Below, piece by piece: positions 32,180 through 46,072 of a stretch of DNA of 64,000 nt. Every line of letters begins with the position of its first letter. Within the stretch, counting starts at the first letter, position 1. The notes below the pieces were generated by a model. The model was not told where the DNA came from. It worked only from the letters and a program-made list of their open reading frames with translations, and did not search any database. The translations under genes were made by a program, and so were the position numbers. The stretch comes from Vicinamibacterales bacterium (lineage in GTDB: Bacteria; Acidobacteriota; Vicinamibacteria; Vicinamibacterales; JAMQPK01), in assembly GCA_023717525.1 (NCBI GenBank), contig JAMQPK010000099.1, positions 1 to 64,000 of the forward strand. The letters are read 5' to 3'.

Positions 32180-32261
32180 GTGATCTCCAGCAGGGCAACT
32201 TACTGGACCCACTGTGGGGTGTCAAGCAACGAAACGCGCTACAATGGCACACGTTCGGCCA

Positions 32262-33650
32262 ATGAATTCCAAGCCAAAAACGGTCCTGATCGTCGATGAC
32301 GACGAGGGGATGCGCGACACGCTGAACGCGATCCTGCGCCGCGATTATCGCGTGCTGCGGGCCGCAAGCGGCGAAGCCGCGCTGGCGATTCTGAACCGCG
32401 AGGACGTCGATCTGATGCTGCTCGACGTGCGCCTTCCCGGCATCGACGGCTTCGACGTGCTCCGCATCACGAAAGAGAACTACGGGCTCGTCGAGGTGAT
32501 CATGATCTCGGCGATCACCGAGATTGAAACCGCCGTGAAGGCGATGAAGTTCGGGGCCTACCACTACACCACAAAAGAGTTCGACTACGAAACGATTCGC
32601 TCGCTCGTCCACAACGCCAGCGAGCGCCAGGATCTGAACCGGCAGGTGATGACGCTCAGCGCGCAGGTCGCCGACCAGGGCGACCGCGAGTTCGTCGTCG
32701 GCCCAAGCAAGCTCACGCGCGATATCGTCGACCTCGTGCAGCGTGTCGCCAAGCTGTCCGCGACGGTCTTGATCCTCGGAGAGAGCGGGACGGGCAAGGA
32801 GCTGCTCGCTCGGCTCATCCATCGCGAGAGCGGGAATGCCGATTCGCCGTTCATCGCCGTCAACCTTGCGGCCATTCCCCGCGAGCTCGTTGAAAGCACG
32901 CTGTTCGGCCACGAGCGCGGATCGTTCACCGGCGCCATGAAGCAGCAGCTCGGAAAGTTCGAGCTCGCGTCGGGCGGCACGTTGTTCCTGGACGAGATCG
33001 GCGACCTCCCGCTCGAGCTGCAGGCGAAGCTGCTGCGTGCAATCCAGGAGGGCGAAATCGAGCGTGTCGGTGGTGCGAAGCCGATCAAGACCGACTTCCG
33101 GCTGATCGCCGCCACCAACGTCGACCTCGAAAAAGCTGTCAAGGACGGGCGGTTCCGGGAAGACCTCTACTACCGGATCAACGTCATCCCCATCAAGTTG
33201 CCGCCGCTCCGCGACCGCATGGAAGATCTGCCCGAATTGGCGATGTTCTTCCTCAATCGCTACAAGGTGCGATTCCGGAAGGCTATCCAGGGCATCTCCG
33301 ATTCAACACTCAAGGTCCTTTCGAGCTACTGGTGGCCTGGCAATATCCGCGAGCTCGAGAACCTGATTGAGCGCCTCGTCGCGGTAAGCGACAAGGAATG
33401 GATTACCGACGAGGATTTGCCCTTCGAGTTCCACTTCGCTCAACTCGATCGAGTGCCCATCCACGGCGAGAGCCTCTTTCAGGAGGCAACCAACACGTTC
33501 GAGCGGAACTTCATTCTTCGCGCGCTCGAGAAGTCCGGGTGGAACGTCACCGCGACGGCGCGCTACCTGGGCATCCCGCTCAGCACGCTGAAGTTCAAGA
33601 TGGACCGCCTCGACATTCGCGAGCTCGCAAAGAAACTCCGCGGCGCCTGA
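32262..33650 (+). CDS. Sigma-54-dependent response regulator (NtrC family)
   Basis: Receiver VLIVDDDEGMRDTL...LLDVRLPGIDGF; GESGTGKELLARLIH; GHERGSFTGA; C-terminal HTH. Confidence 0.95.
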   Translation: MNSKPKTVLIVDDDEGMRDTLNAILRRDYRVLRAASGEAALAILNREDVDLMLLDVRLPGIDGFDVLRITKENYGLVEVIMISAITEIETAVKAMKFGAYHYTTKEFDYETIRSLVHNASERQDLNRQVMTLSAQVADQGDREFVVGPSKLTRDIVDLVQRVAKLSATVLILGESGTGKELLARLIHRESGNADSPFIAVNLAAIPRELVESTLFGHERGSFTGAMKQQLGKFELASGGTLFLDEIGDLPLELQAKLLRAIQEGEIERVGGAKPIKTDFRLIAATNVDLEKAVKDGRFREDLYYRINVIPIKLPPLRDRMEDLPELAMFFLNRYKVRFRKAIQGISDSTLKVLSSYWWPGNIRELENLIERLVAVSDKEWITDEDLPFEFHFAQLDRVPIHGESLFQEATNTFERNFILRALEKSGWNVTATARYLGIPLSTLKFKMDRLDIRELAKKLRGA

Positions 33651-33671
33651 TTCGCGGCCAATCCATTGGCC

Positions 33672-33694
33672 GATCGGCTAACCTCCTGCCGATC
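33672..33694. repeat. Inverted repeat GATCGGC-N9-GCCGATC (possible terminator or operator)
   Basis: 7-bp perfect arms after the regulator gene. Confidence 0.5.
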
Positions 33695-33720: not shown

Positions 33721-33756
33721 TTACAGAGATCGCGTAGGACGGACTCCGATTTAGGT

Positions 33757-33774
33757 CGGCTAATGCGTTAGCCG
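33757..33774. promoter_or_regulatory. Palindrome CGGCTAA-TGCG-TTAGCCG (possible operator or hairpin)
   Basis: 7-bp perfect arms, 212 bp before the radical SAM start. Confidence 0.45.
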
Positions 33775-33985
33775 AAGGCGTTGGAAATCCGGCACGAAAT
33801 TCAAGACGAACTAGACCGGTAAAGCCTTACTTCACAATAGTTTAATTCCTGCGCGGTTTCCGCTCCGATCGATGGAATACCCATTGCTCTAGCGTCATAC
33901 GGAAATTTGTATTCGGGTCTGAACGCGGCCCTGCGGTTCTTTCCAGAGGCGTTCAATCCACTCTCTACTCCGGGTTTTCGGAGCT

Positions 33986-35389
33986 ATGCAGCAATCGATG
34001 TTCAACCTCCGTGTCCCCCTCCCCGAGTCGGGAGAAGTGTTCCTGATGAACACCTTGACGGACGCGCAGTTGATCGTGCCCCCTGAGATCGCTGGATTGC
34101 TCGATCGTCTGACAGACGATCCGCCTTCGATTGAGAGCGAGCGGCTGAACGAGGACGAGCGTGAAGCGCTCATCACGCTGACCGAGCATGGCTTCATCGT
34201 CCCGAATCGCGCGGCCGACACCGAGGCGCTGAACAAGTTCTTCACGGACTACCGCGAAGACACCGAGCAGATGCGCGTCACGGTCCTGACGACCCTGCAG
34301 TGCAATTTTGCGTGCGACTACTGCTTCCAGGGCGACCACGGCGACTACAACAAGCACGCCGACAAGATGTCGCTCGAGGACAGTGCGCGTCTCTCGGCCT
34401 GGATCGAAACTCGACTCGATGAGCTGAAACCGAAGCGCCTGACGCTGACGTTCTTCGGTGGCGAGCCGCTGCTGAACATGCCGGTCGTGTACGACCAGGC
34501 AGAGCGAGCGCTTGCGGCATGCGAGAAGCGTGGCGTGACGCTGGCGCTTGGCATCATCACCAACGGACTCCTCCTGACCGAAGAAATGGTCGATCGGCTC
34601 GTGCCCTACGGGCTGGGCTACGTCAAGGTGACGCTCGACGGCGACCGCGACACGCACAACCAGATGCGCCCGCTGCGCGGCGGCCAGGGCACGTTTGACC
34701 GGATCGTGGAGAACGTCCGGAAGATCGCCGGCAAGGTCCGCGTGGCGATTGGCGGGAATTTCGACGCCGACTCGGTGGCGAGCTACCCCGCGTTGCTTGA
34801 TTTCCTCAAGGAACAGGACTTCGCCGACAAGCTGGCCAAGGTGGCGTTCAAGCCTGTCGTGCGCGAGCGTCAGGCTCCCAAAAACATCATCCCGCTGACG
34901 ATCGTCACCGACAAACCGCTGAATGGGACGTGCATGACGGCGGCCGGTTCTGGCGGATCGAGCATCTGCGACACCTGTCAGTTCGTGGACGAGCAACTCT
35001 CGCACTTGCGCGAGGAAACGAAGAAGCGCGGCTTCAAGACGGTGGACGGCGTCCACATGGGACCGTGCGAAATTCACAAACGGCACGCCTACACGATCGG
35101 GCCCAACGGTTCGACGTATGCGTGCCCGGGGTTCACGGGCGATCCGATGCTGTCGACGGGCCACATCGACGGCCGCACGGAAAGCTGGCGGATGTCGGCG
35201 GCCGAGCGATTCGAACATCTCTCGGCGTGGCACAACTGCGGGGATTGCGCGTTCATGCCGGTGTGCGCGGGAGGCTGCTCGGTTGCCTCGCACACCGAGC
35301 TTGGTGACATGAATATGCCGACGTGTCACAAGCCGGCTTTTGAATCGGCACTCATTTCGCTGGCGCATGACGCGGCCAGCGCATCCTAG
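33986..35389 (+). CDS. Radical SAM/SPASM peptide maturase
   Basis: CNFACDYC (CxxxCxxC); LTFFGGEPLL; VKVTLDGDRDTHNQMRP; Cys-rich SPASM-like C-terminus CPGF...C..CAFMPVCAGGC. Confidence 0.92.
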   Translation: MQQSMFNLRVPLPESGEVFLMNTLTDAQLIVPPEIAGLLDRLTDDPPSIESERLNEDEREALITLTEHGFIVPNRAADTEALNKFFTDYREDTEQMRVTVLTTLQCNFACDYCFQGDHGDYNKHADKMSLEDSARLSAWIETRLDELKPKRLTLTFFGGEPLLNMPVVYDQAERALAACEKRGVTLALGIITNGLLLTEEMVDRLVPYGLGYVKVTLDGDRDTHNQMRPLRGGQGTFDRIVENVRKIAGKVRVAIGGNFDADSVASYPALLDFLKEQDFADKLAKVAFKPVVRERQAPKNIIPLTIVTDKPLNGTCMTAAGSGGSSICDTCQFVDEQLSHLREETKKRGFKTVDGVHMGPCEIHKRHAYTIGPNGSTYACPGFTGDPMLSTGHIDGRTESWRMSAAERFEHLSAWHNCGDCAFMPVCAGGCSVASHTELGDMNMPTCHKPAFESALISLAHDAASAS

Positions 35390-35400
35390 GAGTCGGAATC

Positions 35401-35499
35401 ATGGCAAAGATCAAGGTCATCAAGTCAGGTAAGGAAACCGCGAAGCCACAGAACTACTGCCCGTGGGTTGTAGAGTCCGACGACGCTAAACAGAAGTAG
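35401..35499 (+). CDS. Candidate RiPP precursor peptide, 32 aa (not in ORF track)
   Basis: ATG at 35401 with AGGAG about 8 nt upstream, 11 nt after the radical SAM stop: MAKIKVIKSGKETAKPQNYCPWVVESDDAKQK. Confidence 0.8.
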   Translation: MAKIKVIKSGKETAKPQNYCPWVVESDDAKQK

Positions 35500-35631
35500 G
35501 GCCTAAACATCTGGCGGCCTTGCGCCGAAAAGCGTATCGACCGCCAGGAGTATGATCCAGGTTTCGGCGGTGGCATGGAGCGTCGCTCCCCCGCCGCCGA
35601 ACCGTTGCTCCCCCGGTCGAGGGAGCCCCCG

Positions 35632-37149
35632 ATGCTTGCCGTCCGGTTACTCGGACTCTTCATCTGCCTGAGCCTGCCGGCATGCTCTCATCCGCCGGCT
35701 GCCTCGGCTCGTTCTTCCAGCGACTCCGTCACCCTCACCATCGGGTTACCGTTCATGAGTGGACGAGACTCACTGAACGGTATTCAGCAGGCAGTTCGGC
35801 TCCTCAGCTTTGAGGGACTCGCCCAGATCGAGCCGGAGGGGCGACCGCAACCACGACTCGCCCAAGGATGGACCGTATCGCCGGACGGACTGTCGTGGAC
35901 GTTCCAATTGCGCGACAACGCATTCTTTCATGACGGCAGCCCTGTGGATTCGACCGCGGTGAAGGCATCGCTGGAGCGGACACTTTCAAGTCCGGCCGTG
36001 GCTATGTCGCCAGGGTTGGTGGACATCATCGGCATCGACACCCCAAAGCCTTATCAGTTGGTCATCAAGCTCAGGAGACGGTCGACGTTTCTGCTCGATG
36101 ATCTCGTCGTCTCCATCTCCAAGCCGTCACCGGATGGTCCGCCCGTCGGCACAGGGCCATACGTGACAGACTCGACGACGCCGACTGAAGTCACGATGAA
36201 GGCTTTCCCCTCTTACTATCGCGGGGTTCCGAGTGCGGATCGAATCGTTTGGAAGTCGTACCCGACTGCTCGCGCATCGTGGGCCTCAATGATGAGAGGC
36301 GAGATCGATGTACTGTTCGAGGTGCCTCCAGATGCTTTCGAGTTCATGAGCAGTGAGGACTCGGTCGAGAAATTCTCATTTCTCAGGAACTACGTTCATG
36401 GAGTCGTGTTCAACATGCACCGCCCTATCTTTCGCGACTCGAGGGTCAGGCGCGCGCTGAACCACGCGGTCAATCGAGTTGCTCTAATCAATCAGGCCTT
36501 TGATGGCCACGGTGTTCCCGCAAACACTCCAACGTGGCCCGATCACTGGGCATCCGACCGGAATCTGCCGAACTACACCTACGATCCCGCCAGAGCCACT
36601 GCTTTGATGGAGGAAGCAGGACTGAAGATCGATGATGACCGCCCCCCGGCGCGGATGCGTTTCAAATGCATCTTTCCGACCAATCCGGTGTGGGAGCGAA
36701 TGGCGCTTATGGTCCAGCGCGACTTCTCACAAATAGGCGTCGACGTTCAATTCGAGGAACTTCCGCTCGCCGAGTTCAACCGCCGTCGTGTGAACGGAGA
36801 TTTTGACGCTGTGCTCTCTGAGTTGATCGCTGGAAACTCGGCTGGCCGCCCTTACGTGTTCTGGCACTCAAGCAGCAAGCAGAATTCGGTAGGCTATCAA
36901 AACCCCCAGGTAGACAACGCCTTCGATCGCCTCAGGCAAGCGACAGATGATGCCCAAACGAGGGCGGCTTTCCGCGACCTCCAATTGCAGATGCTCGACG
37001 ATCCTCCTGGCGTTTTTCTTGCGTTCGGTCAACTGACACGCGCGGTCAGTCGACGCTTCACGGTCACCGTAGTCCCTGGGAACGACATCATCCGCTCGAT
37101 CAATGAATGGCACCTGGCAGTTCAGGGCGCAGAACGGGATTCGAATTGA
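35632..37149 (+). CDS. ABC transporter family 5 (oligopeptide-type) solute-binding lipoprotein
   Basis: MLAVRLLGLFICLSLPAC lipobox; LAQGWTVSPDGLSWTFQLRDNAFFHDGSPV; VRRALNHAVNRVALINQAFDGHG. Confidence 0.88.
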   Translation: MLAVRLLGLFICLSLPACSHPPAASARSSSDSVTLTIGLPFMSGRDSLNGIQQAVRLLSFEGLAQIEPEGRPQPRLAQGWTVSPDGLSWTFQLRDNAFFHDGSPVDSTAVKASLERTLSSPAVAMSPGLVDIIGIDTPKPYQLVIKLRRRSTFLLDDLVVSISKPSPDGPPVGTGPYVTDSTTPTEVTMKAFPSYYRGVPSADRIVWKSYPTARASWASMMRGEIDVLFEVPPDAFEFMSSEDSVEKFSFLRNYVHGVVFNMHRPIFRDSRVRRALNHAVNRVALINQAFDGHGVPANTPTWPDHWASDRNLPNYTYDPARATALMEEAGLKIDDDRPPARMRFKCIFPTNPVWERMALMVQRDFSQIGVDVQFEELPLAEFNRRRVNGDFDAVLSELIAGNSAGRPYVFWHSSSKQNSVGYQNPQVDNAFDRLRQATDDAQTRAAFRDLQLQMLDDPPGVFLAFGQLTRAVSRRFTVTVVPGNDIIRSINEWHLAVQGAERDSN

Positions 37150-38900
37150 AGCGCATCGCCTCGCGCTTCGCCTTGTTGCTCGCAGCAGCGGGAATCCTGC
37201 CGCTGGTCTTGTACGGTGCCGTGTCGATCTTCTCCCTGCGCGATGCGACACGGCGCTCGGTCATTTCCGGCAACGAAAATGTCGCCAGGCGCGTAGCGGA
37301 ACAGATCGGCCTCTACGTCCAGACCAACGTCGACATTCTGAAGTCCGTCGGCGGGAATCTTGAAGAGACGAACCTCGAGCGGTGGCAGCAGGATCGAATT
37401 CTGAAAACCGCAGTCCTCGACTTTCCAGAATTCCGCGAAATCACCTTGTACGACGCGGCGGGCGGCCAACTCGCTTCCAGCCGGGTCGGGAAATCGGGCG
37501 TTCGGTTCCCTCAGTCGGGAACGCCCTTCGGTTCGAACATCATCCTGTCGCCCATCGATATCGACAGCGACTTCCTGCCCCGGGCGGTCGTCGGTATCAA
37601 GCTGTCCCATGTTGGTCGAAGCTCCGGCTCTCTAGTCGGCGAGATCAGCCTCGAAGAAATGTGGCGGATGGTCGATCGCATCAAGGTAGGCGAGCAGGGG
37701 TACGCGCTCGTCGTCGCATCCGGGGGAGCGCTGATCGCCCATGGCAATCCCGACGAGAAGCCGCGAGTGGCGCGGGGCGACAACCTGAAGGATCAGCCGC
37801 TCGTTCAGCTTGTGCATGCAGAGCAGAACAAAGGGCCGGTGTCGCTCGAATTTGCAAGCGATCGCGGAATTCAGATGCTGGGCGTCGCCGCGCCGCTCGA
37901 GCCGCTCGGCTGGACGGTGATGGTCGAACAGCCGCGCAGCGAGGCCTACGCGGTCGCCGATCGCCTGACGCGACAGCTCGTGATGATCATCGGTCTGGCA
38001 CTGCTCGTCACCGTCACCGTCGGCTACTTCTTCGGCCGATCGTTCATCCGGCCGATTTTCGAGCTCATGCGCGGAACCGCGGCCGTCGGCGGAGGCCGCC
38101 TGACCGAGCGCGTCAAGATCACGTCGAAGGACGAGTTCAAACAGCTGGGCGACGCGTTCAACAGCATGGCCGACAAGCTCGTCGAGCTGACAGAGGACGT
38201 TCGAAAGAAAGAACGACAAGCCATGTTCGGCCGCATGGCCGCCGGCCTCGTCCACGATCTCTCACATCCGGTGCAGAACATCGGCAACAGCTGCAAGCTG
38301 ATCGTCCGCGTGTTCGACGATCCGGAGTATCGCCAGACGTTCACCCGCACGATCGATCGCGAGATCGACACACTGAAACGCGTGCTCGACGACCTGCGCA
38401 ATGTCGCACGGCCGGCGCCAGTCGAACGCTTCCCCCTCGACATGAACCGGGCCGTGGCCGACATCGTCGAGTCGATGCGCGGCTACGCCGACGAATCGGG
38501 CATCGGCCTCGAGTCGAAATTCTCGAGCGAGCCGGTGATTGTCGAAGGCGATGCGTTTGCGCTCGGCCGCGTCTACCGCAACCTCATTACGAACGCGATT
38601 CAGGCCACACAGGCCGGCGGACGCGTGACCGTGGCGACCGCACGCGCCGGCGCCATGGTGGAAGTGAGCGTCTCGGACACCGGCTCCGGCATTCCGCAGG
38701 AACGCCTGGCTGCCATCTTTGACGACTTCGTCACGACAAAGAAACGCGGCCTGGGTCTTGGCCTTGCGATCACCAAACGCATTGTCGAACAACTCGACGG
38801 CACGATCGCCGTCTCGAGCGAAATGGGCAAGGGCACGACGTTCACGATGCGATTCCCCGTCGCGGCACGGCCGATGGCCGTCGTGGCCGCGGCAGGCTAG
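37145..38900 (+). CDS. Membrane sensor histidine kinase (extracellular sensor, HAMP, HisKA, HATPase)
   Basis: Two TM segments; LVHDLSHPVQNIGNSCK H-box; VYRNLITNAIQATQ; DTGSGIP; TTKKRGLGLGLAI. Probable TTG start overlapping the previous gene. Confidence 0.88.
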
Positions 38901-38909
38901 AGAGGCACC

Positions 38910-39155
38910 ATGCTCTTCAAGACACTCGTCAAGACGGAAGATCTCGAGATGGAGGGGCGGGACTACCCGGTCTGCTACTTCGAAGGCACCACAGCCCGAG
39001 GCGCCAAGCGCTACAGCGCCGAGCTGGCGCTCGGACCAGGCGATCGAATCATTCTTGACGCGGCAACGCTGAGCGATCTGGAACTGCGAGTCGCGCGACT
39101 GATGCCCGCGACGCTCCAGAGCCGGATGCTGGCGGCGAAGTCACCAGCGGCGTAG
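38910..39155 (+). CDS. Small hypothetical protein
   Basis: 81-aa ORF 10 nt after the kinase stop. Confidence 0.6.
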   Translation: MLFKTLVKTEDLEMEGRDYPVCYFEGTTARGAKRYSAELALGPGDRIILDAATLSDLELRVARLMPATLQSRMLAAKSPAA

Positions 39156-40376: not shown

Positions 40377-42800
40377 TTGCAGAACCTGCGACCGCCGTTT
40401 GCGGCGGGCGATGCAGTTATTGCACGTGGCGAGCGCTGGGTCGTCGAAGAGACGACGGCATTCGAGGACTGCGTGCTGCTGCAGCTTGCGGCACCGGCTA
40501 GTGGTGCCGGCCACGGCAGGCGGGCGTGCCTTCTGCATCCATTCGACCGGCCCGTCGCCGCGACGCCCGAACGCAGGACTCGCGTCGTCACACGCACACG
40601 CTGGATGAATAATCTGCAGTTTCATCTCGCTGACCTTCGCGGGCATGGCCAGCTGCGATCGGCCCGCTCGGCCGCAATCGACATTCTTCCGTTTCAGCTC
40701 GAGCCGGCGCTCGCAGTCGTCCGCGGACGTGCGGCGCGGGTGCTGTTGGCCGACGAGGTCGGACTGGGAAAGACCATTCAGGCCGGGCTCGTGCTCGCCG
40801 AACTACGGCAGCGAGGGTGGTGCGAGCACGCGCTCGTTCTCAGCCCGGCGGGTTTGTGCCGGCAGTGGGCCGAGGAACTCGGCCGGCGGTTCGGCATCGC
40901 CACATCAGTACTCGATACAAACTCGCTCCGGGGTCTCTCGGCTGCACTGCCATTCGGCGTCAACCCCTGGTCTGTGGAACGGGTTGTCATCGCCTCAACC
41001 GACTTCATCAAGCAACCCGAGGTTCTACATGCCGCCGCATCGATTTTGTGGGACATCCTGATCGTCGACGAAGCCCATCAGGCCGCAACGGCGCCTCAAC
41101 GAGCCGCAGCAGTGAATCTGGTTGCGCGACGATCACGACATCTGCTGCTCATCACCGCCACCCCGCACGCCGGCGACGAAGCCGCGTATCGATCGCTTTG
41201 CGCAATAGGTCGGATCGGCGGCGACGATCCGCTGCTGCTCTTCCGCCGCACGAGGAACACGGTCGGTTTCAAAGGAACGCGCAAAGTTCGCCTGCTGGCG
41301 ATTCGCCCCGGACCGGAGGAGCGCGAGATGCACCATCTGCTCGCCCGCTATGTGCAACGCCTCTGGCAAATAGGCGACAGGGAAGACGCAAGCAGCGTAC
41401 GACTCGTTGCCATGGTCTTGAGCAAGCGAGCACTGTCAAGCGCATCCTCGCTGGCTTCGTCAATCGAACGGCGTCTGGGCTGCCTGACCGATCGCGTTTC
41501 GGAGCCCGTTCAGACCGGTCTGCCGATCGGTGCATCCGAGGACGACGACCGAGCGGACGCCGAGCCGGGCTTCGGTATTCCTGCCTTTGAGCGCATTGAT
41601 GAGGAAAGGGCATCACTGCGGGCCATCCTCGCCGCCGCTTACCGCGTTCGCGAGGAAACGAAAGTGCAGGCGCTCGTCCGGCTGCTCCGCCGTGCAGCTG
41701 AGCCTGCTGTCGTTTTCACCGAGTATCGCGACACGCTCGCGTTGCTGGCAAGCTCTCTGGCGCCGTTCCGACGGCTGGTGTTGCTGCACGGAGGCTTGTC
41801 CGCAGACGAACGGCGGATTGGCGTCCAGGCCTTCAACAGTGGATCGGCCGATCTGCTACTGGCCACCGATGCCGGCTCTGAGGGTTTGAACCTGCAGCCG
41901 CGCTGCCGGCTCGTCGTCAACCTCGAGTTGCCCTGGAATCCGATTCGTCTCGAGCAACGCATTGGCAGGGTCGATCGGCTCGGCCAGTCGAGGACGGTTC
42001 ACGCGGTCAATCTGTTCGCTGAAGGTACGGCCGAGGCCACCGTGCTCGCGAGCCTCCTCAAGCGGCTCGACAAGATACGGGCAAGCGAGATCGACATTGC
42101 CGGGTGCGTCATTGGCGGCCGCGAGCCGAGCTTTTCTCCGTCCATGACTGCGGATACGGCCGCCACGATCATCGACCTCCAGAAAGAGTCGGACCGAGAG
42201 GCAGAACGATTGCGTGACCTCAAACGCCGGCCGGCCTCGCCTCCGTGGCATGGCGACTACACTCGACTTCCTGTCTGCGTCCTCAGATCTCGAGACCGCC
42301 GGTTCTCCAAATCACCAGAAGCCCTTTGGTTCTATCGAACGCGAATCGTCAACGGATGCGGCCGGCTCGTTGAGGATGTCCTCGTGCCGGTGCGATCTCC
42401 CCTTTCCGCGGCCGATGTGGCCGGCTGCTGCTGGGCCGACGTCAGGCGACGGAGCATTCGGGCCATCGCCGAGCGACTTCTCGAGCAGTATCAAGGAGCC
42501 GCATCGGCGGCGGCCCGACTGCATCTCGAACGGCGCGCCTCCGTGATTGCTGGCGAAAGCCGCGAGTGGATCGTTCGGGCGCGAACGCGCGAACAGCAAC
42601 TCTCGCAGACCCTTCAGACCACCAGCCCACTCTTTCAGGCCGGCTTGTTTGACGGACGAACGCTCAGGCAGCGGGAAGAGGGCCGCGCAGAACACCATCG
42701 GCTGATGGCCGAGACGGCGTCTCGCGCTGGGCATCTCGGACTGGAGGGCCTGACGACCGCCCAGGAACCCGAGCTGGCGCTCCTTCTTCTGCGATGCTGA
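40377..42800 (+). CDS. SNF2-type superfamily 2 helicase
   Basis: LLADEVGLGKTIQAGL, DEAH, TATPHAGDE, GLNLQPRCRLVVNLELPWNPIRLEQRIGRVDRLGQ; TTG start. Confidence 0.92.
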   Translation: MQNLRPPFAAGDAVIARGERWVVEETTAFEDCVLLQLAAPASGAGHGRRACLLHPFDRPVAATPERRTRVVTRTRWMNNLQFHLADLRGHGQLRSARSAAIDILPFQLEPALAVVRGRAARVLLADEVGLGKTIQAGLVLAELRQRGWCEHALVLSPAGLCRQWAEELGRRFGIATSVLDTNSLRGLSAALPFGVNPWSVERVVIASTDFIKQPEVLHAAASILWDILIVDEAHQAATAPQRAAAVNLVARRSRHLLLITATPHAGDEAAYRSLCAIGRIGGDDPLLLFRRTRNTVGFKGTRKVRLLAIRPGPEEREMHHLLARYVQRLWQIGDREDASSVRLVAMVLSKRALSSASSLASSIERRLGCLTDRVSEPVQTGLPIGASEDDDRADAEPGFGIPAFERIDEERASLRAILAAAYRVREETKVQALVRLLRRAAEPAVVFTEYRDTLALLASSLAPFRRLVLLHGGLSADERRIGVQAFNSGSADLLLATDAGSEGLNLQPRCRLVVNLELPWNPIRLEQRIGRVDRLGQSRTVHAVNLFAEGTAEATVLASLLKRLDKIRASEIDIAGCVIGGREPSFSPSMTADTAATIIDLQKESDREAERLRDLKRRPASPPWHGDYTRLPVCVLRSRDRRFSKSPEALWFYRTRIVNGCGRLVEDVLVPVRSPLSAADVAGCCWADVRRRSIRAIAERLLEQYQGAASAAARLHLERRASVIAGESREWIVRARTREQQLSQTLQTTSPLFQAGLFDGRTLRQREEGRAEHHRLMAETASRAGHLGLEGLTTAQEPELALLLLRC

Positions 42801-45800
42801 ACGGCCTTAGCGGTTCTCTGCTCTCTCACTACTTCGCCGAGTGCCGGCTTGCCGGCGAGTTTTCGGGTGCGCTGGGCGAAGAGACTGTCGCACCCGCCTT
42901 CCATCGATTCGGTCGCTGGTGGCAGCAGGCGTCGCAATTAGGGCCGGCGTCGAGTCTTCGGGCGATCACAGACCAGGCTGCGCTGCCACTCGTCGAAGCA
43001 CTTGGCTTCCGCGTAGCGAGCGGACGCGTCCTCATTCATCGGAATGCCCGCGTTCCTTTGCTCGTAGGCGTGTGGACCGACTCGCTCGATGCGCTCTGGA
43101 GAAACGCGGTGCGCGCAGGGCTCGCAGCATCGACGCCGTGGTGTCTGTGCTGCAACGGGCGCGAGCTCAGGCTGGTTGACGCCGAACGCACATACTCGCG
43201 CGCGTATCTTCAATTCGATCTGGAACGGCTCGCTGGCGACCTGCACGCGTTTTCAGTGTTCTGGGGTGTCATGCGTGCGGATGCGTTTGACGCGCGAGGG
43301 AACGACACTCCGCTGATCACGCGCATCGTTCGGCAATCGGCACGGCACGGCACGGCCGTTGGCCGATCGCTGCGGTCGGGTGTCCTCGATGCTGTGGCTG
43401 CGCTGCTGACGGGCCTGCTCGGCCCACGCGGCGGGAACAGACGGTTGAAGGGCGGCGAGCTCGACGCAGGACTCGACGAGTCGCTCACCCTCGTGTACCG
43501 GATGTTGTTTCTGATGTTCGCGGAGGCTCGAGGACTGGTACCGAATTGGCATCCAATCTATCGCGACCACTACACGATCGAGGCGCTTCGCGACGCCGCA
43601 GATCGCCCGGGCCCCGCAAGCGGCCTCTGGCCAGCGCTACAGGCGATTTCGCGTTTGGCGCATCGCGGATGCCGGGCAGGAACGCTGTGGGTTCCGGCCT
43701 TCAACGGTCGCCTGTTTTCGCCGGCCCGTTCACCCATGGCCGAATCTTCAGTCTTGCCCGATGATGTTGTGCGGAGCGCCCTCGTTTCGCTATCAAGAAC
43801 GCCAGCGAGCCAGGGGCGGATCGACTACCGCGACCTCGGCGTTGAGCAGCTCGGCGCCGTCTACGAAAGCGTGCTGGAGTACCGTCCAGCCTTCACAGAA
43901 CCCGGAAAAACCGGAAACCGGGTTCTGCTACGGCGGGGCGGCGATCAGCGCAAGACGACCGGATCGTTTTACACGCCGCAATCGATCACCGACTACCTGG
44001 TTCGCCGGACGCTTCACCCGCTTGTGGACAGCGCGACATCGGCGGAGATTCTGCAGCTTCGTGTCGTCGATCCTTCGATGGGAAGCGCCGCGTTTCTCGT
44101 TGCCGCTTGTCGGTATCTCGCTCGAGCGTACGAACGTGCCTTGCTGCGCGAGGGCGCATTGCACGAAGGTGAGCTCACAGACGGCGATCGCGCCGGGTTC
44201 AGGCGAGCCATCGCCCAGGGCTGCCTGTTCGGCGTCGACCTGAATCCCACGGCCGTACAGCTGGCGCGTCTGTCGCTCTGGCTGGCCACTCTGGCAGCTG
44301 GCAAGCCATTAAGCTTCCTCGATCATCATCTGGTGTGTGGAGATAGCCTCCTTGGCGCATCGCCCGTCGATCTTGCCCGTCAGGCGCCTCCCCGCGCCGG
44401 CCGTAAGGCCTCATCGAGAAATATCGAGACGCCGCTGTTCCTGGAGACCGACTTCGAGGGATCTGTCGCCGCAGCCGTGACGGAGCGCCGATGGATTGCG
44501 GATACGCGAGACGATACCGTCGCCGTCGTCTGGGAGAAGGAGAGACGCCTCGAGCGGATCCACGGTGTGGACCGTTGGAAAACGATAGCGGATCTCTGGT
44601 GTGCTTGCTGGATGTGGCCGCGCGACACGAAGTCCCCGGGTGGTGCCGTTTTTTCGTCGCTGTGCGAGCAGCTGCAGTCCGGGCGGGCTGTCCTGCCAAC
44701 GCACGTTACGGAGCCATTTCTGGAGACATCGCGCTCGATAGCCGAGAGCAGGCGATTTCTACACTGGCCGATCGAGTTTCCCGAGATCTTTTTCGACGGC
44801 GCTGGCCGGCCGCTCGAGAATCCCGGGTTCGACGCCGTGCTCGGGAACCCTCCGTGGAACATGCTGCGTGGGGACAGCCCCGAGAAAACCTTTATCCGGG
44901 GCTCCGGCGTCTACCGGCACCAGAGCGGTGGCCACCTCAACCGGTACCAGTTGTTTGTCGAGCGTGCGCTCGCGCTGATGAAGCAGGGCGGACGCATGGG
45001 TCTGGTGCTGCCGTCAGGTTTTGCGACCGATCACACCTCGTCTGGGCTCAGACGGCGCGTGATCGATCACTGCGATATCGACAGCCTCACCGGCTTTGAT
45101 AACCGGCGCGCGATTTTTCCGATTCACCGAAGCGTCCGCTTCATCTTGTTCACCGCGACAGCCGGCCGGCCTACGGCCTCCATCAAGTGTCGGTTCGGAA
45201 TCGACGATCCGGCCGTCCTGGACACCATCCCGGATCAAGGAGATCGCGCGGCCGACCCGATGTACACGATTTCTCTGACGCCCGATCTCATCGGCCGTCT
45301 CACCGGCGAGCAACGAGCGATCCCAGAGTTGCGGGCCCCGCGCGACCTCTCGATCGTGGAACGCATCGTCCATCGATTCCCCAGACTTTCGAGCGCCGAC
45401 GGCTGGAACGTGCGATTCGGGCGCGAGCTGAACGCCACCGACGACAAGGCACATTTTTCGTCGGCCAAGCATCATGGAATGCCCGTGCTCGAAGGAAAAC
45501 ACATTGAATGCTTCGCCGCGAGAGTCGATCGCAGCACCCACACCATCTCCGAACGGCAGGCCGCCCGCCTGATCGACCCGGCGCGATCGTTCGGGCGCGC
45601 GCGGCTCGCCTATCGGGATGTGGCGAGCTCGACGAACAGAATGTCCCTTATCGCGGCGATTCTTCCTGCGGGCGTCGTGACGACTCATACGCTGTTCTGC
45701 CTGAAGACATTTCTCGGAGCACGCGAGCAGGAGTACCTATGCGGGATGCTGAATAGTTTCGTGGCGAACTACCTCGTCCGACAGGTCATGACGACACATC

Positions 45801-46072
45801 TTGGATCGACGACGGTCGAAAACCTTCGCGTGCCGATGGTCTCGCAGACGTCCGCGGAGTTTCAGAGGATCTCGTCGCTGGCAGGCGCGCTGGGACGACG
45901 GTACTCGCCGGAGGATGCGGCGCGGCTTCAAGCAGCCGCCGCGCAGGCGTATCAACTAACGGAAGAAGAGTTCGGGCACGTGCTGTCGTCGTTTCCGCTC
46001 GTACCCGAATCGGAGCGAACGGCGGCGCTGGAAGCCTTCAGCCGCTGGCCGGAAACCGCCGGGTCTGCTTGA
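42794..46072 (+). CDS. N6-adenine DNA methyltransferase, Eco57I-like / type IIG-like
   Basis: TGSFYTPQSITDYLVRRTL; VVDPSMGSAAFLVAACRYL; GVDLNPTAVQLARLSLWL; AVLGNPPWNML; overlaps helicase stop by 7 bp. Confidence 0.92.
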   Translation: MLNGLSGSLLSHYFAECRLAGEFSGALGEETVAPAFHRFGRWWQQASQLGPASSLRAITDQAALPLVEALGFRVASGRVLIHRNARVPLLVGVWTDSLDALWRNAVRAGLAASTPWCLCCNGRELRLVDAERTYSRAYLQFDLERLAGDLHAFSVFWGVMRADAFDARGNDTPLITRIVRQSARHGTAVGRSLRSGVLDAVAALLTGLLGPRGGNRRLKGGELDAGLDESLTLVYRMLFLMFAEARGLVPNWHPIYRDHYTIEALRDAADRPGPASGLWPALQAISRLAHRGCRAGTLWVPAFNGRLFSPARSPMAESSVLPDDVVRSALVSLSRTPASQGRIDYRDLGVEQLGAVYESVLEYRPAFTEPGKTGNRVLLRRGGDQRKTTGSFYTPQSITDYLVRRTLHPLVDSATSAEILQLRVVDPSMGSAAFLVAACRYLARAYERALLREGALHEGELTDGDRAGFRRAIAQGCLFGVDLNPTAVQLARLSLWLATLAAGKPLSFLDHHLVCGDSLLGASPVDLARQAPPRAGRKASSRNIETPLFLETDFEGSVAAAVTERRWIADTRDDTVAVVWEKERRLERIHGVDRWKTIADLWCACWMWPRDTKSPGGAVFSSLCEQLQSGRAVLPTHVTEPFLETSRSIAESRRFLHWPIEFPEIFFDGAGRPLENPGFDAVLGNPPWNMLRGDSPEKTFIRGSGVYRHQSGGHLNRYQLFVERALALMKQGGRMGLVLPSGFATDHTSSGLRRRVIDHCDIDSLTGFDNRRAIFPIHRSVRFILFTATAGRPTASIKCRFGIDDPAVLDTIPDQGDRAADPMYTISLTPDLIGRLTGEQRAIPELRAPRDLSIVERIVHRFPRLSSADGWNVRFGRELNATDDKAHFSSAKHHGMPVLEGKHIECFAARVDRSTHTISERQAARLIDPARSFGRARLAYRDVASSTNRMSLIAAILPAGVVTTHTLFCLKTFLGAREQEYLCGMLNSFVANYLVRQVMTTHLGSTTVENLRVPMVSQTSAEFQRISSLAGALGRRYSPEDAARLQAAAAQAYQLTEEEFGHVLSSFPLVPESERTAALEAFSRWPETAGSA

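Follow-up and report, generated by a model that had tools for sequence, protein, structure and literature searches.

A conserved short peptide and its radical SAM/SPASM maturase in a putative signalling cassette of soil Acidobacteria

Closest described systems

The substrates of PapB, a ranthipeptide maturase, carry thioethers between cysteine and aspartate or glutamate with the spacing C-x3-D. Thioethers from Cys to nearby Asp/Glu are also made by QhpD (PMC8326336). In the SCIFF pair CteA/CteB, a further ranthipeptide system (PDB 5WGG/5WHY), the leader is bound by the RRE of CteB as a beta strand (PMC8326336), and a link between SCIFF-derived ranthipeptides and quorum sensing in clostridia has been reported (Chen et al. 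2020, as summarised in PMC8326336).

The locus described here (Table 1) is located in the window, that is, the whole stretch of 64,000 nucleotides that was analysed. Its maturase resembles CteB over nearly the full length of the fold, with the same combination of RRE, radical SAM core and SPASM domain, and, as in CteA/CteB, a short precursor adjoins the maturase and a cysteine is the modified residue, here putatively. However, the SCIFF precursor contains six cysteines in ~45 residues, whereas the peptides of this family have one (59 of 63) or two (4 of 63); CteB is devoid of the GTCMT...CDSC insert found in the window maturase family; and a substrate-binding protein (SBP), a kinase and a sigma-54 regulator are attached to the window cassette. 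No curated cut-off of a named maturase family in NCBIfam is reached by the window maturase. The top model is that of the geopeptide maturase, TIGR04280, which scores 250 bits over most of the protein against a cut-off of 400, and the models of PapB-type ranthipeptide maturases (NF047865), QhpD of quinohemoprotein amine dehydrogenase maturation (TIGR03906) and SCIFF maturases (TIGR03974) give 119, 111 and 102 bits against cut-offs of 340, 453 and 425.

For the sensory genes, the comparison is with LuxP-LuxQ-LuxO of Vibrio AI-2 quorum sensing, which consists of a binding protein, a tandem-PAS/CACHE kinase and a sigma-54 response regulator. As in LuxPQ, a kinase with a modelled tandem CACHE sensor is encoded beside the gene of a binding protein, and the window regulator matches the LuxO model, below its cut-off. 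In contrast to the Vibrio system, the binding protein is an SBP_bac_5 lipoprotein instead of a member of the LuxP family, the kinase is not a hybrid, the ligand would be a ribosomal peptide, and the regulator would induce the cassette itself; LuxQ is absent among the 50 structural matches listed for the kinase sensor domain. Another peptide with a similar core is AgrD, with its C-x4-[DE][DE]-P, since here too Cys is followed by hydrophobic residues and then by D/E-D/E-P. Membership of AgrD (TIGR04223) was rejected, as a single one of 47 peptides is borderline (G390, 18.7 vs. 19) and the window peptide gives no match; the conserved cassette contains no AgrB-like gene and has a radical SAM maturase instead.

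Table 1. Features of the cassette and its control region, with positions in the window
Feature	Position	Strand	Basis and remarks
AtoC-like sigma-54 response regulator	32214..33650	+	Pfam Response_reg, Sigma54_activat, HTH_8; likely start 32262
Palindrome CGGCCAATCCATTGGCCG	33655..33672	.	CGGCCAA-N4-TTGGCCG type; probable regulator site
Second palindrome TCGGCTAATGCGTTAGCCGA	33756..33775	.	Inverted repeat; possible second regulator site
-24/-12 sigma-54 promoter-like element TGGAATACCCATTGCT	33873..33888	+	113 nt 5' of maturase start
Radical SAM/SPASM maturase, N-terminal RRE-like domain	33986..35389	+	Profile, structure, cysteine motifs
RiPP precursor peptide, 32 aa, MAKIKVIKSGKETAKPQNYCPWVVESDDAKQK	35401..35499	+	Invariant Cys20, core CPWVVE, family conservation; ATG at 35401, stop ends at 35499
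SBP_bac_5 substrate-binding lipoprotein	35575..37149	+	Pfam PF00496, 258 bits; likely start 35632; lipobox LPAC
Sensor histidine kinase: TM, dCache, TM, HAMP, HisKA, HATPase	37107..38900	+	Pfam, conserved in 47 loci
81-aa conserved ORF	38910..39155	+	Directly after kinase in at least 20 cassette loci; no Pfam match

The precursor peptide and its maturase

The 32-residue ORF that the initial annotation had placed directly after the radical SAM gene was confirmed at the same coordinates. Its ATG lies 11 nt past the TAG of that gene (35387-35389), and an AGGAG (35388-35392), which starts within this stop codon, is found 8 nt 5' of the ATG. Relatives were collected from 61 maturase loci, 60 from the host order with their flanks and that of the window, out of which 58 have sufficient 3' sequence for the peptide to be counted. 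An intact family peptide occurs in 56 of these 58, 11-420 nt 3' of the maturase, and in the other two it is damaged, by a deletion in G380 and by two in-frame stops in G356. Precursors are mostly ~23-36 codons long across the family, the leader motif MKIxVVKK is common to the 63 distinct peptides, and pN/pS is 0.23 (pS 0.49, pN 0.115; Nei-Gojobori, 22 independent pairs). Seven genomes carry two or more precursor copies in tandem. At locus L177 of one genome (G428), at least four near-identical tandem precursor genes follow each other with a 162-nt period, 152-671 nt after the maturase.

A frame that is open merely by chance, which its length of just 32 codons would permit, is already contradicted by these comparative data (conservation in 56 of 58 loci, the invariant Cys, the pN/pS value and the tandem copies), and its probability is negligible. 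The comparison of loci shows a real, conserved precursor that goes with the maturase, and the pairing of the two is close to certain. The earlier proposal, in which the ORF encodes a basic-leader RiPP precursor that belongs to the SPASM maturase upstream of it, is thereby supported by the conservation of the family, and both signs by which it was to be recognised, a conserved short ORF after homologous maturases and purifying selection, were found; the acidic tail noted at the same time is not a family trait, and many relatives end in -KK or -KR. The window peptide matches no model in Pfam or NCBIfam, and the NCBIfam matches of its relatives are few and all to unrelated families.

The maturase combines the CX3CX2C motif, the SPASM cysteines and an N-terminal RRE fold. 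The CX3CX2C motif and the seven-Cys SPASM spacing are invariant in the homologues, and the Pfam SPASM model gives 14.6 bits on the window protein (cut-off 21.5). CteB is the top match in the profile search (E=3e-93, profile positions 7-431) and provides the best structural matches of the AlphaFold model (pLDDT 83). By analogy, it is plausible that the MKIxVVKK of the precursor is the equivalent of the CteB leader strand. The conserved insert with extra cysteines that CteB does not have spans residues 316-331 (window 34931-34978); C316 and C328 are conserved in it, and C331 likewise except in the Nitrospirae homologue. These three cysteines may be additional cluster ligands, in an insert that is modelled at low confidence.

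In a Cys-anchored alignment of the 63 peptides, the cysteine is the sole invariant residue (63/63). It is followed by Pro at +1 (51/63), W/F at +2 (50/63; W in 39, elsewhere also V, L, S, T, C, I, A or Q), a hydrophobic residue at +3, mostly V/I at +4 and Asp/Glu at +5 (58/63; the five exceptions, S, A, C, C and T, all belong to family f9), and F/Y precedes it in 35 of 63. Two members end as early as Cys+5 or Cys+6. Since the whole peptide of the outgroup, a Nitrospirae metagenome-assembled genome (MAG; locus L058), is MKIIKKGEKKVKSTPVHCTFLIG and that of G395 ends in CPWILED, residues past Cys+6 are dispensable. Asp/Glu at +5 is missing in family f9 and in the Nitrospirae peptide, and therefore cannot be the universal cross-link partner.

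The adjacent radical SAM enzyme almost certainly modifies the peptide, and Cys is the best-supported modification site. Among Tyr, Cys and Trp, which had been suggested together as the cross-link site, Cys is thus retained, while Tyr and Trp are not conserved family-wide. As the aromatics are variable, and the peptide of G347 (SCPVLVDDD) has none between Cys-1 and Cys+6, a family-wide cyclophane at Tyr/Trp was rejected, and a Cys-centred modification remains. Whether this is a thioether is evenly balanced; its partner would most likely be a residue 3-5 positions after Cys, with Asp/Glu at +5 as the prime candidate in most lineages. The spacing C-x4-[DE] differs from the C-x3-D of PapB substrates, and the only sequence support for assignment to the ranthipeptide class would be the invariant Cys together with the frequent D/E at +5. 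Epimerisation, cyclophane formation or decarboxylation in place of a thioether is rather unlikely: the V/I conserved at +4 would fit an epimerase and W is frequent at +2, but Cys alone is invariant, the aromatics vary, and the closest solved relative, CteB, makes thioethers. Even with such chemistry, the signalling logic discussed below may still stand.

Cassette, regulator and co-inheritance

Beyond the peptide and the maturase, which the initial annotation had caught, the locus contains a lipoprotein, a kinase, a regulator, a sigma-54 promoter and palindromes that it had missed. The gene order is regulator, sigma-54 promoter with upstream palindromes, maturase, peptide, SBP lipoprotein and kinase. 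Gene clustering of the 61 loci recovered the regulator in 55, located 5' of the maturase, the maturase in 58, and the SBP and the kinase in 47 each, with constant order and strand; no permease, exporter or protease was found in the conserved cassette. The sensor domain of the kinase is modelled as a tandem CACHE fold (pLDDT 91), and the phospho-acceptor His is present in 47 of the 47 kinases that cover the site. Membership of the 81-residue ORF in the cassette is uncertain. Further downstream, an SNF2-type helicase (40377-42800, best PADLOC match DrmD) overlaps an N6-adenine methylase (42794-46072, best match DrmMI), apparently components of a DISARM-like or BREX-like defence locus.

Between regulator and maturase, the top-scoring -24/-12 site beats shuffled sequences (p<=0.05) in 49 of 54 loci, and palindromes of the CGGCCAA-N4-TTGGCCG type lie upstream of it in 34 of 54, compared with 0.28% of shuffled sequences; many relatives have a second palindrome at about -113 from the -24 element. 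The window regulator has an intact phospho-site (D-D-D-S-K) and the sigma-54 contact motif GSFTGA, and RpoN is encoded in the window genome, so that receiver, AAA+ domain (GAFTGA), HTH, -24/-12 promoter and RpoN of a sigma-54 two-component system are all present. Control of the operon by sigma-54 is very probable.

The maturase is present in 66 of 162 genomes of the host order and in none of ~290 other Acidobacteriota genomes at E<=1e-55; the named loci matched by the query are Acidobacteria MAGs (some labelled gp6) and Luteitalea. Among the 162 genomes, 63 have maturase and kinase, 3 the maturase only, 10 the kinase only and 86 neither. Eight of the ten kinase-only genomes run off a contig end. 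The remaining two have a damaged locus: in G342, maturase, peptide and SBP are gone and the kinase match is split in two, and just parts of regulator and kinase are left in G419. In six cassette-less genomes, the lipoamide dehydrogenase, regulator and HU genes are directly adjacent, and neither promoter, palindrome nor cassette is found between regulator and HU. In the Nitrospirae MAG, maturase (36% identical), peptide, SBP and kinase occur in the same order. Across these genomes, the promoter and the genes of maturase, peptide, lipoprotein and kinase behave as one block, either there or missing, behind a single sigma-54 regulator.

The phospho-site of the regulator is intact in 53 of 55 cassette-bearing loci (the exceptions are G383 and G312) and altered in eight of nine cassette-less genomes, in which the sigma-54 contact motif is still intact. 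Five of these eight share one change in one genus, which reduces them to about four independent events. A phospho-site that is intact with the cassette and damaged without it, together with the retained His of the kinase, connects kinase and regulator with each other and with the RiPP, and the two proteins in all likelihood form a pair.

Exact copies of the palindrome are found elsewhere in five genomes, where they separate a Dpp-type SBP/permease (or downstream) operon from a divergent subtilase operon, in regions that usually also contain an HTH gene and an HD-GYP gene. In L244, L245, L247 and relatives, the palindrome is close to the start codon of the SBP gene, whether or not the genome has the cassette, and these sites show no convincing -24/-12 element. 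Genomes that lack the cassette and have the transporter palindrome keep the regulator, and the four regulator-less genomes tested (G213, G175, G329, G041) all lack an orthologue of the transporter. The transporter is thus linked to the regulator and not to the RiPP, and, as the same site is present in cassette-less genomes, the Dpp/subtilase operon was rejected as a regulon of the RiPP cassette. The simplest reading would be that the regulator predates the cassette and was in use for peptide acquisition before the cassette added a dedicated input. G304 has the transporter without the palindrome; the window genome has no orthologue of this transporter and contains just one further exact palindrome, flanked by the ends of convergent genes. 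In L242, at ~6515 (G331:C232:17515), tandem palindromes 19 bp apart precede a -24/-12-like element and a small frame rich in Cys, and the regulator may have a second target there.

Possible function

The peptide is read as a signal because it is co-inherited only with its maturase, a permease-less lipoprotein, a kinase with a periplasmic sensor and an apparently autoregulated promoter. In the proposed circuit, the RRE domain of the maturase would grip the MKIxVVKK strand of the leader, and the enzyme would modify the core at the invariant Cys. The product would leave the cytoplasm through some exporter and protease. Outside, the SBP_bac_5 lipoprotein would bind it and present it to the dCache domain of the kinase, which would phosphorylate the regulator. 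The latter would bind the palindromes and activate the sigma-54 promoter of its own operon, closing a positive feedback loop. A self-contained, autoinduced RiPP signalling cassette is given slightly better than even confidence, and the chance that the modified peptide is itself the signal sensed is about even. More tentatively, the modified ribosomal peptide may be an autoinducer of Gram-negative Acidobacteriota (sporadically Nitrospirota), with a periplasmic SBP_5 lipoprotein and a dCache kinase as co-receptor and a sigma-54 regulator as amplifier, which in relatives would also control the scavenging of peptides by the Dpp-type transporter and the secreted subtilase.

Against the signal reading, the ligand of the SBP could be other than the peptide, and direct binding of small ligands is common among CACHE domains. 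Oligopeptides are the typical ligands of SBP_5 proteins, and the palindrome shared with the Dpp-type transporter and subtilase operon of relatives suggests peptide nutrition; both would fit an SBP and kinase that sense environmental oligopeptides, with the RiPP as an effector (e.g., an antimicrobial or protease inhibitor). Nevertheless, the loci contain no immunity or export gene, conservation across the order with vertical inheritance is unusual for an antimicrobial, and the kinase and SBP are lost along with the peptide whereas regulator and transporter persist, which makes an effector role unlikely. Still less probable is that the peptide is made into a metal-binding compound or redox cofactor; the SBP would then recapture the (metal-loaded) product, with the kinase as a monitor of metal or redox status. 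SBP_5 proteins can bind metal-chelate complexes, NikA-type models rank among the best matches of the SBP, and the single conserved Cys would suit such a role, as would methanobactin matches in some peptides; these matches are, however, weak and insignificant (best E 0.03), and a methanobactin identity was rejected. Moreover, neither a permease nor a metal-handling gene is found in any locus, and the sole companion genes are those of sensing and regulation.

Returning to the signal reading, the cassette as a whole seems to be a peptide-based signalling circuit, so far undescribed, of soil Acidobacteria. Searches of the literature for a RiPP with kinase, SBP and sigma-54, or for geopeptide, found nothing on this system; absence of the RiPP-kinase-regulator cassette from the libraries and literature searched is not proof of novelty, and an earlier description elsewhere is conceivable.

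Acidobacteria are among the most abundant soil bacteria, and to our knowledge little is known about their cell-cell signalling. The precursor is easily missed by ordinary annotation, being a short ORF for which Pfam and NCBIfam have no model in the case of the window peptide. The 63 natural variants are a ready map of the residues that the maturase needs, and a compact, portable set of peptide, enzyme, putative receptor and own promoter would make RiPP signalling in Gram-negative bacteria directly testable.
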